Source: Terriglobales bacterium (lineage in GTDB: Bacteria > Acidobacteriota > Terriglobia > Terriglobales > Acidobacteriaceae). Taken from it: DNA of 64,000 bases. Below, one piece after another: positions 4,077-44,816 of the stretch; the first letter of the stretch is position 1, and each line of letters starts with the position of its first letter. The position numbers and the translations under genes are program-made. The notes beneath the pieces are model-generated. The model searched no databases and was not told where the DNA came from. It was given only the letters and a program-made list of their open reading frames with translations. Location of the stretch: the NCBI GenBank assembly GCA_035651995.1, contig DASRER010000020.1:124001-188000 (forward strand). Direction: 5' to 3'.

Positions 4077-4162
4077 CGGTGGTCTACGATGCCGCACCGC
4101 CGGCAAGAAGGCAAAAGGAAAAAGTAAAAAGGCAAAAAAAGCGCCGCTCACCCCAAGAGCGC

Positions 4163-4333
4163 GGGTCAAGTAGGGATGCTTCGACTACGGCCCGCTGCGC
4201 GGGCCTTCGCTCAGCATGACGGCCGTCGAAAAAAGCAGCACTCGGACATGGCTGCAAAATCACGCCGTCATGCTGAGCGGAGGCGGCTCGCGCCTGCGCG
4301 AGCCGGCGCAGTCGAAGCATCCCTACCTGACCC
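4163..4333. repeat. REPIN-like inverted-repeat doublet 1
   Basis: A 171-bp element made of two opposed copies of one repeat. The outer arms at 4163-4186 and 4310-4333 are 24 bp each with one mismatch (GGGTCAAGTAGGGATGCTTC on the left). Inner arms TCAGCATGAC (4211-4220) and GTCATGCTGA (4267-4276) are exact. Each half also has its own GC-rich hairpin. The right arm contains the stop codon of GIY-YIG gene 1 (4323-4325). A near-identical doublet lies at 4729-4903. Confidence 0.85.
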
Positions 4334-4688
4334 GTGCGCTCCGGGCGAGTATCGCCTCCCACTTTTTTCGCCGGCGCTGCACATCTTCATACCACTCCCG
4401 GCTCAGGTCTTTCCAGCTCGGATTCATGCTCTCGATGAGCGCAATCTTCTTTTTGCGCGTCCAGCCCTTCAGCTGCTTCTCGCGGTGAATGCCGTTCAGG
4501 GGATCATCGAAGGATTCGTAGTAGAGAAGACGGTCAACTTCATAGCGGCTCGTGAAGCCCTCGAAGACGCCGTCTTTGTGCTCAAGAACGCGGGCCTGTA
4601 ATCGCCCGGTGAACCCGACGTAGAACGTTCCTGAAAGGCTGCCCAGGATGTACGTGTACCAGATGCCGTGGTTGTATAAGCGGGCCAT
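4323..4688 (-). CDS. GIY-YIG nuclease family protein, copy 1
   Basis: 121 residues starting MARLYNHGIWYTY; ATG at 4688 is preceded by AGGA seven bases upstream. The single GIY-YIG domain (YhbQ/UPF0213 size class) shows the paired Tyr motifs WYTYILGS and FYVGFTG, the basic strand with REKQLKGW (metal-binding Glu) and the terminal signature MNPSWKDL. Members are small stand-alone DNA endonucleases; the cell role of most is unknown. The last residues (SARVR) and the stop codon are encoded by the arm of doublet 1. A paralogue lies immediately upstream (4893-5261) with the same gene-repeat junction, so gene and repeat duplicated together. Confidence 0.9.
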   Translation of the reverse strand: MARLYNHGIWYTYILGSLSGTFYVGFTGRLQARVLEHKDGVFEGFTSRYEVDRLLYYESFDDPLNGIHREKQLKGWTRKKKIALIESMNPSWKDLSREWYEDVQRRRKKWEAILARSARVR

Positions 4689-4728
4689 GCTTTCCTGACG
4701 CACGTCGTCGTGCTCACCCCAAGAGCGC

Positions 4729-4903
4729 GGGTCAAGTAGGGATGCTTCGACTACGGCCCGCTGCGCGGGCCTTCGCTCAGCATGACGCCGTCGAAAAAAA
4801 GCAGCACTCGAATATCGGTGCGCAACCGACTACGCCGTCATGCTGAGCGGAGGCGGCTCGCGCCTGCGCGATCCGGCGCAGTCGAAGCATCCCTACCTGA
4901 CCC
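4729..4903. repeat. REPIN-like inverted-repeat doublet 2
   Basis: A 175-bp copy of the doublet at 4163-4333. The outer arms are 4729-4752 and 4880-4903, and the inner hairpins are nearly the same. The sequence homologous between the two doublets begins at CTCACCCCAAGAGCG (4147 and 4713, offset 566), so the unit from doublet to nuclease gene is a tandem duplication. The right arm holds the stop codon of GIY-YIG gene 2 (4893-4895). Confidence 0.85.
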
Positions 4904-5261
4904 GTGCGCTCTGGGCGCCCAGCATTTGCCGCCTTTCTCGCCGCCGCTGCACATCCTCATACCATTCCCAGCTCAGGTCTTGCCAGCTCGGATTCATGGT
5001 CTCGATGAGCGCGACCATCTTCTTGCGCGTCCAGCCCTTCAGCTGCTTCTCGCGAGCGATGCCGCTCAGAGGATCGTCGAATGACTCGTAGTACAGCAGC
5101 CTGCGATCGACCCCGGCGCGGCCCGTGAAGCCCGTGAAGATGCCTTCCCTGCGCTGAAGCACGTGTCTTTCGAATTGGCCGGTGAAGCCGATATAGAGCG
5201 GCTCGGCGAGGCTGCCGAGAACGTAGGTGTACCAGATGCCGTGGTCGTAGAAGGGGCTCAA
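4893..5261 (-). CDS. GIY-YIG nuclease family protein, copy 2
   Basis: Homologous over its whole length to copy 1 (shared blocks HGIWYTY, LYYESFDDPL, REKQLKGWTRKK, EWYEDVQRRR, QSARVR). No ATG or GTG aligns with the start of copy 1. The best start is TTG at 5261 (MSPFYDHGIWYTY), with GAGGCG just upstream, giving 122 residues against 121 in copy 1. A longer frame to 5369 begins in repeat sequence and is less likely. All GIY-YIG signature residues are kept, so the copy may be active. The start codon remains uncertain. Confidence 0.85.
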   Translation of the reverse strand: MSPFYDHGIWYTYVLGSLAEPLYIGFTGQFERHVLQRREGIFTGFTGRAGVDRRLLYYESFDDPLSGIAREKQLKGWTRKKMVALIETMNPSWQDLSWEWYEDVQRRRERRQMLGAQSARVR

Positions 5262-5390
5262 GGGCGCCTCGCGTCGAACTGTGCTGCCCGTCCGCGGCAC
5301 GCTATCGTGCCTCCCGCAGGGGCAGGCGTCAAGCCTGGACGTGCTCCCTCGCTCACGCTCGGCCTTCACTCAGCACGACAGCGAGAAACT

Positions 5391-11915: not shown

Positions 11916-12057
11916 TTGTCATCCTGAGCCAAGCCTGAGTCCGCCAAGCGGACGAAGGCGAGTCGAAGGGTCCCTGCTCGATTTCGGGCGTGTGGCAGCG
12001 GTAGCGGTGGCTCGACTCGGCCCCTCGCGTTGCTCGGGACCTCGCCCAGGATGACAA
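11916..12057. repeat. dispersed palindromic doublet with 11-bp exact terminal inverted repeats
   Basis: TTGTCATCCTG (11916-11926) and CAGGATGACAA (12047-12057) are exact inverted copies at the two ends. Inside, each half has the pattern GTCATCCTGAGC, a hairpin, then GAGTCGAAGG or its complement. It is a degenerate member of the same family as the doublets at 4163 and 4729. Single or partial members occur at 33548-33590 and 44748-44816. Confidence 0.75.
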
Positions 12058-33245: not shown

Positions 33246-33547
33246 ACTGTCCGCTGACCCGCTTCCGCCGCCCGCCGCAGCCTTCGCCGCTCTGGGAGCC
33301 GCCGCACCGGGTTTACCGGACCGGTCGTCGGGGGCCCCAGCGGATTGGAGTCCTTGGGCCGGCATCAACTGCTTGCGCTCCCGAAGCCCTGCCTCGTTTA
33401 CGCACTGATATGGACGTGACCGAAATCGAACGGTGAGCAGAGATTATAGGGTTTTCAGGGGTTTGGCGATGCACTGGAGGTGGTGCAGGAAGGGCGCCGG
33501 CGCATCTGGCGCACCTTCGCTCCTGCCGAACCATTCCCCTGAACGGG

Positions 33548-33590
33548 TCATCCTGAGTCCGCGCTCTTTGCCGACTCAGGACCTATGTAG
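33548..33590. repeat. single palindromic element of the dispersed GTCATCCTGAG family
   Basis: GTCATCCTGAGTC begins the element; GAGTC (33555-33559) and its copy GACTC (33573-33577) form a hairpin, followed by AGGACCTATG. It is a degenerate single copy of the family found as doublets at 4163, 4729 and 11916. It contains the stop codon of the possible GIY-YIG remnant. Confidence 0.6.
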
Positions 33591-44747: not shown

Positions 44748-44816
44748 GTCATCCTGAGCGAAGCGGGCGATTCCGCACAGCGGAAGCACCCGCGAAGTCG
44801 AAGGGGGCCTGCCTGG
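44748..44816. repeat. single palindromic element of the GTCATCCTGAGCGAAG family
   Basis: Begins GTCATCCTGAGCGAAGC, has an internal hairpin (GATTCCGCACAGCGGAAGCA region with TTCCGC/GCGGAA) and ends CGAAGTCGAAGGGGGCC. This is the clearest single copy of the family and gives its layout: conserved head, variable hairpin, conserved tail with GTCGAAGG. Confidence 0.7.

Follow-up and report, generated by a model that had tools for sequence, protein, structure and literature searches.

A small GIY-YIG nuclease gene between inverted CGTC-type palindromic repeats: a probable mobile unit in a Terriglobales genome and in other bacteria

Repetitive extragenic palindromic sequences (REPs) of the CGTC type were defined by Di Nocera, De Gregorio and Rocco in 2013. 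According to the available text of their article (PMC3733652), these repeats occur in several phyla, include the dRS3 repeats of Neisseria (classed as CGTC-1), predominate as dimers with the tags outside and seemingly have no dedicated transposase. The term GIY-YIG does not occur in the text of PMC3733652, and a link between GIY-YIG nucleases and CGTC REPs was not found among the matches listed in the open-licence literature, as far as their accessible text goes and with preprints and subscription journals outside the scope. REPs with an enzyme of their own are known from the REPtrons, in which a RAYT (TnpA-REP) gene lies between inverted REPs, gene-less REPs and doublets (REPINs) are numerous in the genome and REP types are subclass-specific (PMC6006769 and PMC8049555, in the portions available). 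Here we describe a locus that shares these traits and has an unrelated enzyme. It lies in a 64,000-nucleotide stretch (the window) of a Terriglobales genome (GenBank assembly GCA_035651995.1, contig DASRER010000020.1, positions 124,001 to 188,000) and comprises two adjacent genes for small GIY-YIG nucleases, each accompanied by inverted REPs. From the comparison of sequences across genomes, we conclude that the REP-gene-REP segment probably constitutes an autonomous mobile unit of about 450 bp, of which single REPs and doublets would be non-autonomous derivatives. The architecture of the unit and its spread are very likely; that the nuclease is the mover of the repeat is likely.

Both nuclease genes of the window are read from the minus strand (Table 1). 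Gene 1 matched the GIY-YIG domain PF01541 with an E value of 3.3e-11 and gene 2 with an E value of 7.6e-6, the latter being scanned as the longer frame 4893-5369; this was the only Pfam match of both proteins, and no NCBIfam match was obtained. The start of gene 2 is set here at the TTG codon at 5261, the limit chosen in a preliminary description of the locus, while the longer frame starts at 5369. Repeat doublets lie at 4147-4349 and 4713-4915, and three blocks of gene plus doublet recur with a period of 566-573 bp (identities of 74, 87 and 91%), bearing out the tandem duplication that the preliminary description had reported. Read in the direction of the genes, the order is degenerate left-end REP, gene 2, right-end REP, spacer, left-end REP, gene 1, right-end REP, spacer and an extra left-end REP. 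Each end repeat has its GTCAT head (once GTCGT) facing away from its own gene and its tail toward the gene. The layout of the unit is a head-to-tail REP, the gene and a tail-to-head REP, with the GTC tag outward. The doublets, previously taken for components of the duplicated unit, are present as described and are not parts of a unit: they are junctions, where the right end of one unit adjoins the left end of the next. The extra left-end REP may be what is left of a third unit, or else a trace of the tandem duplication. The window is best described, with good confidence, as holding two tandem copies of a small unit, one intact and one decayed.

The repeat is dispersed well beyond this locus. 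Allowing up to 2 mismatches, GTCATNCTGAGCGNAG had 10 matches in the window against 0.6 expected, and GTCATGCTGAGCGNAG had 104 matches in the 3.66-Mb host genome against 1 for the reversed control. The single copies and the degenerate doublet already reported elsewhere in the window were all recovered (Table 1). The isolated doublet has its tags outside, a geometry opposite to that of the junction doublets between the window units. Where both sides of the stem were readable, the base following GTCAT covaried with its partner, as G-C in 31 readings and C-G in 26, with no other pair, the readings being drawn from overlapping loci and the counts therefore not independent.

To survey relatives, a profile built from the three small GIY-YIG proteins of the host genome was run on 396 genomes of the window's phylum; it matched in 95 of them at E<=1e-6, weaker families included. 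The strong set comprised 74 matches with E<1e-15, a boundary set after the match list was known. From the 64 weak matches, 33 were used as an internal control. The 300 bp preceding each gene were aligned locally with the reverse complement of the 300 bp following it, a score of at least 16 counting as a pass. This inverted-repeat test was passed by 48 of the 74 strong matches compared with 10 of 4250 shifted placements (0.24%). Small GIY-YIG proteins of the UPF0213 (YhbQ) type have the same fold and a similar size (nearest solved structures 1zg2 and 1ywl); in contrast, the weaker matches, which by eye look like proteins of this type, were devoid of flanking repeats in 32 of 33 cases, and the one that passed is a damaged member of the strong family. 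Heads of the GTCAT type, their tails turned geneward, stood on both sides of 39 of the 74 strong matches, compared with 4 of 1248 shifted placements; they were present upstream in 56 and downstream in 43, and at least one head, in any orientation, was found within 250 bp in 64. Alignment and head count replaced a detector of hairpins with 6-bp stems, which overlooked the majority of arms, since in the window's class the outer stem that follows GTC measures about 5 bp. Two matches from genome G325, UPF0213-like by eye, were kept among the 74 for these flank tests and excluded from the 43-genome copy-number set, the class analysis, the residue and span set and the unit-pair comparison presented below.

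The same architecture recurs in other phyla. The named-genome sample consisted of the best 80 of at least 566 candidate loci. Among the 72 loci with full flanks, 54 passed the inverted-repeat test versus 18 of 3048 shifted placements; with short flanks included, 59 of the 80 passed. Within this sample, passing loci came from Alpha-, Beta-, Gamma- and Deltaproteobacteria, Nitrospirae, Calditrichaeota, Chloroflexi and candidate phyla, and single loci from Anabaena and a planctomycete failed, as did others. Homologous genes elsewhere thus carry the repeat at both ends, and the possibility of a chance association between gene and repeats, which the preliminary description had left to be decided by such a search, was rejected on the proportions of 48/74 and 54/72 relative to shifted placements. 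An artefact of tandem duplication in one genome was likewise rejected, the matches extending across the phylum and the named genomes. The arms belong mostly to the CGTC type. Many named loci have canonical CGTC forms, CGTCATTCCCGCGCAGGCGGGAATCCAG being one, beside the gene, and canonical CGTC REPs often serve as arms (for example CCGTCATTCCCGCGCAGGCGGGAATCCAGT in L211). Considering the 107 passing elements of both sets together, the tags point outward in 71 and inward in 10, while the arms of 15 have both and those of 11 have none. The unit from REP to REP spans a median of 451 bp, and the arm starts a median of 9 nt past the stop codon. The stop codons of both window genes lie inside a repeat arm, as had been noticed from the start, yet this is not the rule: in the 107 elements the stop codon is inside the arm in 28, before it in 70 and beyond it in 9.

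Family members were also found in 33 records of a plasmid collection (Rhizobium, Sinorhizobium, Sphingobium, Shinella and others), where they are mostly annotated as GIY-YIG nuclease alone or not annotated. A phage origin was rejected, as one query gave no phage match at E 1e-8. In Neisseria gonorrhoeae (L199), a member of the family sits in an array of dRS3-like repeats (CGTCATTCCCGC...GGGAATC) whose tags point toward the gene. In a metagenome-assembled genome of Patescibacteria (L243), the homologous stretch has three in-frame stop codons; it is either decayed, misframed or read with another genetic code.

The repeats resemble CGTC REPs in their outer (C/T)GTC tag, in a stem that starts with AT, in the formation of dimers with the tags outside and in their occurrence in several phyla. 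The tag is unpaired, in the form CGTC or TGTC; the window arms read CCGTCATGC, and the outer homology ends at or near (C/T)GTC. Unlike CGTC REPs, whose stem of 8-9 bp encloses a loop of 4-5 nt, the window arms have a longer, nested hairpin: in two of the three arms that were folded, a second hairpin is enclosed by an outer stem of 5 bp (ATGCT/AGCAT), and the third folds otherwise. Stems of 8 bp with 4-nt loops are found in L246 and L117. The tail reads CCC in the window; CCA, the tail of CGTC REPs, is common in proteobacterial loci. The parallel with RAYTs and REPINs drawn in the preliminary description is apt, since the gene is flanked by inverted REPs of a genome-dispersed type. However, the enzyme is unrelated (GIY-YIG and not HUH Y1, PF01797 being unmatched by the window proteins), the tag is (C/T)GTC and not GTAG or GTGG, and sequence comparison suggests that here the gene-carrying unit itself moves. 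Insertion sequences and miniature inverted-repeat transposable elements (MITEs) share with the unit the terminal inverted repeats, the single gene and the short gene-less derivatives, and insertion sequences also share the dispersed paralogous copies, here identified from sequence comparison. The differences lie in the small median span and in the lack of a known transposase domain in the window proteins (Pfam and NCBIfam). A target duplication, usual in most insertion-sequence families, was not seen at the ends compared, where flanks are often too diverged. The system is filed among REPs with a dedicated enzyme and, by its enzyme, falls outside the RAYT and insertion-sequence families.

The type of repeat goes with the clade of the nuclease. 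Repeat classes were drawn up by us from the letters that follow GTCAT. Left and right arms belonged to the same class in 79 of 89 elements, with 27 expected. In a tree of 70 proteins from that phylum, 57 of which had a class label, there were 12 class changes, few columns being available and many forks staying unresolved, compared with a mean of 25.8 and a minimum of 22 in 300 label shuffles. The nearest protein in another genome shared the repeat class in 46 of 57 cases (17.6 expected) and, for classes other than A, in 20 of 27 (2.1 expected). Two fragments (G036:C6 and G241:C1:828) were excluded from this analysis. Genome G202 harbours four genes whose left arms belong to four classes (A, B, D and E); the A, B and E genes group with same-class relatives from other genomes, and the D gene shares a fork that is not resolved with genes of classes C, D and E.

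Copy number points in the same direction. Five or more GTCATNCYGAGCGNAG repeats were present in 30 of the 43 genomes with a strong gene versus 18 of the 353 without, a co-occurrence due in part to shared ancestry. Within the window's family, the median was 32 repeats in the 30 genomes with the gene and 17.5 in the 14 without. Classes B, C, D and E were each commoner in family genomes with the matching gene (p = 2.6e-5, 0.011, 3.3e-5 and 1.1e-5, respectively) and, within one genus, again so (p = 0.003, 0.013, 0.007 and 0.0015), gene classes having been assigned by hand and, for G297 (B), G241 (C) and G202 (D), from one arm each. Shuffling the classes among gene-bearing genomes gave p = 0.0006. 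Class-C copies number just 1 in G313 and 2 in G241, two of the four genomes with a gene of that class. The association of repeat number with gene presence, raised as a question in the preliminary description, was borne out, though modestly within the window's family, and the copy number of each class tracks its matching gene. These counts also bear on the possibility that the gene is a passenger and that tyrosine (Y1) transposases, of the RAYT or TIRYT type, do the moving. Y1 enzymes have been proposed as movers of GTAG REPs (PMC3733652, available text), and Y1 matches were present in 39 of the 44 family genomes, three of them in the window's genome. Yet repeat number was correlated with the number of GIY-YIG genes (rho 0.52, p = 3e-4) and not with that of Y1 genes (rho -0.22, p = 0.15). 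None of 30 Y1 loci (L298-L327) had GTCAT heads on both sides, two being shortened by contig ends, with the match position assumed, and 16 of the 30 had their own inverted repeats, which seem to have no relation to those of the GTCAT type. Furthermore, five genomes without a Y1 match hold 56-190 repeats, although one of these, G352, also lacks a strong GIY-YIG gene. It is thus highly unlikely that Y1 enzymes account for the repeats.

The limits of the putative mobile unit were sought by comparing its copies. In paralogous units of genomes G195, G179 and G139, homology starts a few bases outside the left tag, runs over 482-491 alignment columns and stops at the right tag or a few bases outside it; it does not enter the 2.5-kb flanks, where other matches are REP-sized. 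Among 296 unit pairs judged non-orthologous by alignment length, 37 had homology reaching at least 30 bp past the gene on both sides, and 25 of these ended at both tags; the pairs share members (25 different elements in all), and a random position left of the gene is that near a head 7% of the time. Seven of the pairs that passed the filters came from one and the same genome each; the homology ended at the tags on both sides in four and on the right side only in one, while in G388 and G265 the alignment was confined to the gene. Judging from these ends, REP-gene-REP seems to move as a unit.

Presence and absence at orthologous sites could be compared in two instances. In Azospirillum lipoferum 4B, the annotation places sufB and sufC 617 bp apart, with the gene in between; the immediate neighbours of the gene are doublets with the tags outside. 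Five of the 11 other Azospirillum records listed were compared: in the four annotated ones, sufB and sufC are 55-129 bp apart with neither the gene nor a CGTC repeat, and the suf site of the fifth, unannotated record also lacks both. In genus g4, 15 of 30 loci were readable across the site that is occupied in G061. Gene and REPs are both present in two of these, in one of them in opposite orientation; seven have a spacer of 40-135 bp with neither gene nor mirrored GTCAT pair, two of them holding a lone GTCAT; the remaining six carry other inserts. Flanks at both sites are too diverged for exact ends or target duplications to be read. At L266 (G398), an intergenic site orthologous to L096, the unit is in the opposite orientation, which could stem from an inversion between the end repeats or from a separate insertion. 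Loci L290 and L291 differ by a clean 66-bp indel, within flanks of 97.4-99.8% identity, that holds a single class-C REP; its edges are not set by the REP and no duplication accompanies it, so that it proves nothing.

Homology that ends at REPs would also be expected from recombination between REPs. One could therefore imagine a homing-like process in which the nuclease cuts REP loci and homologous recombination between REPs copies the gene in, the REPs themselves being scattered by other means. GIY-YIG enzymes are known from homing (PMC1564403, portions available). GIY-YIG homing endonucleases and Penelope-like retroelements have in common with the present unit that such a nuclease serves a selfish element. 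The protein of the unit is a single domain, with no NUMOD or reverse transcriptase domain detected by Pfam in the window proteins, and its ends differ from theirs in being palindromic repeats which also occur solo in many copies. Against homing, relatives without the gene at the orthologous sites are also without the REP pair, so that simple insertion of the gene into a doublet already in place does not account for those sites; in addition, repeat copy number follows gene class. We consider this process unlikely. A GIY-YIG domain recently inserted in an HsdR protein (MCA0838 of Methylococcus capsulatus) and missing from a homologue of 80% identity in Deinococcus geothermalis has been described by Dunin-Horkawicz et al. 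2006 (PMC1564403, same portions). We suspect that this insert is a REP-gene-REP unit.

At each of Y18, Y28, R38, H42, E75 and N94, a single protein departs from the conserved residue among the 147-150 aligned proteins with a letter at that position. Conserved tyrosine, tyrosine, arginine, glutamate and asparagine residues have catalytic roles in the GIY-YIG superfamily, and we take the six residues to be catalytic on this ground. Among the 150 aligned sequences, the changes R38 to H and H42 to R are confined to window gene 2. Arginine and glutamate are among the residues listed as conserved in the superfamily (PMC1564403, portions available). From its sequence, gene 2 is probably catalytically dead, and the tandem pair would then consist of one live and one dead copy. 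An AlphaFold2 model of the gene 1 protein (mean pLDDT 89.7, 33 alignment rows) had UPF0213 and Slx1 as nearest folds in Foldseek (best E 1.4e-3), with no match at E<=0.001, and this comparison of a predicted structure supports the fold class only. Slx1 cuts branched DNA, and REPs often start just past the stop codon; these two facts would suit a role in DNA repair, that of a domesticated, structure-specific nuclease which trims REP cruciforms, has the REPs as its terminators and takes no part in mobility. Such a function fits poorly with up to six matches per genome (fragments included), with a patchy presence (95/396 genomes at E<=1e-6), with dispersed paralogous units that end at tags and with REPs lying upstream too (56/74, versus 43/74 downstream). 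We deem it exceedingly improbable.

The host genome has four PF01541 matches. One is a 683-residue frame, taken for UvrC because of its size, and two are the window genes; the fourth is another small gene, L003, whose neighbours look like thiolase and 3-hydroxyacyl-CoA dehydrogenase genes. L003 is framed by a related inverted palindrome, with ATCCCGAGCGAAGCGAGGGA upstream and its mirror image in the 3' end of the gene; the GTC tag has been lost from these repeats. Its inverted-repeat score of 12 is at chance level in the automatic test because the right arm is partly inside, or at the edge of, the match. Four REPs at G000:C6:6795-7102 (L026-L029) run in the same direction, the last three with a 65-bp period, and form a small tandem array.

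Table 1. Features of the two tandem units and other copies of the repeat in the window
Feature	Position	Strand	Basis or remark
Degenerate left-end REP of unit 2, GTCGTGCTGAGTGAAGG...GGGAGCACG	5337..5379	-	Head pattern matched at 2 mismatches, tail toward gene 2
Gene 2, small GIY-YIG nuclease	4893..5261	-	PF01541 and residue check
Right-end REP of unit 2, head GTCATGCTGAGC at 4837, away from gene	4836..4900	+	Contains gene 2 stop codon
Left-end REP of unit 1, head at 4786, tail toward gene 1	4713..4787	-	
Gene 1, small GIY-YIG nuclease, 126 aa, active-site residues intact	4323..4703	-	PF01541, AlphaFold2
Right-end REP of unit 1	4266..4335	+	Contains gene 1 stop codon
Extra left-end REP beyond unit 1, tail away from gene 1	4147..4221	-	
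Degenerate REP doublet, tags outside (REPIN/MITE-like)	11918..12055	.	
Single REP	33547..33584	+	
Single REP	44748..44815	+	

Several observations weigh against a mobile unit driven by its own nuclease. At the cut-off used, 26 of the 74 strong relatives have no flanking inverted repeat, and 10 of the 74 have no head motif within 250 bp; ten passing elements carry their tags inward. Of 39 close REP pairs away from genes, 23 are same-direction, 12 tags-outward and 4 tags-inward, so that tandem arrays are common as well. Within the window's family the class-A link between gene and repeat number is modest (p = 0.02). Class-B repeats number 138 in G359, where no class-B gene is present, and repeats abound without a detected strong gene in G094 (121), G382 (121), G163 (118), G337 (93) and G352 (56); we assume that G359, G094, G163, G337 and G382 contain relics or genes that were missed. 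Twelve of the 37 extended unit pairs do not end at tags on both sides. No target-site duplication was seen at the ends of the paralogous units examined, where flanks are often too diverged, and six comparisons of close genomes, G094/G163 and G233/G329 among them, gave no clean insertion signature. Finally, we know of no biochemistry for the nuclease.

With these points taken into account, a mobile unit whose nuclease recognises and cuts its own class of REP is quite probably the correct explanation as a whole. The unit would consist of a left REP, a single-domain GIY-YIG gene and an inverted right REP, with GTC tags at the outer edges. The nuclease would bind the REP hairpin of its own class and cut beside the tag, and the cut would start movement, driving the spread of the whole unit and, in trans, of gene-less REPs and doublets. 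Doublets with tags outward could be derivatives of the unit by internal deletion. Movement would perhaps take place on single-stranded DNA at replication forks, where the hairpin would be single-stranded, a route proposed because no target duplication was seen. We lean, somewhat less firmly, toward regarding the unit as a new class of bacterial transposable element, whose sole enzyme would be a single-domain GIY-YIG nuclease of about 100 residues that moves its own unit and, in trans, the CGTC-type REPs found in several phyla; it would then be the dedicated enzyme thought missing for these repeats.

REPs of the CGTC type lacked a known dedicated enzyme, and a cognate nuclease, encoded in cis and matched to the repeat by class, is a strong candidate. 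This makes the question of the CGTC-REP mover testable in one laboratory strain. If the nuclease does move REPs, a chemistry that is neither that of RAYTs nor that of DDE enzymes would drive the genome-wide spread of repeats, and many genes now annotated simply as "GIY-YIG nuclease family protein" would encode proteins of mobile elements.
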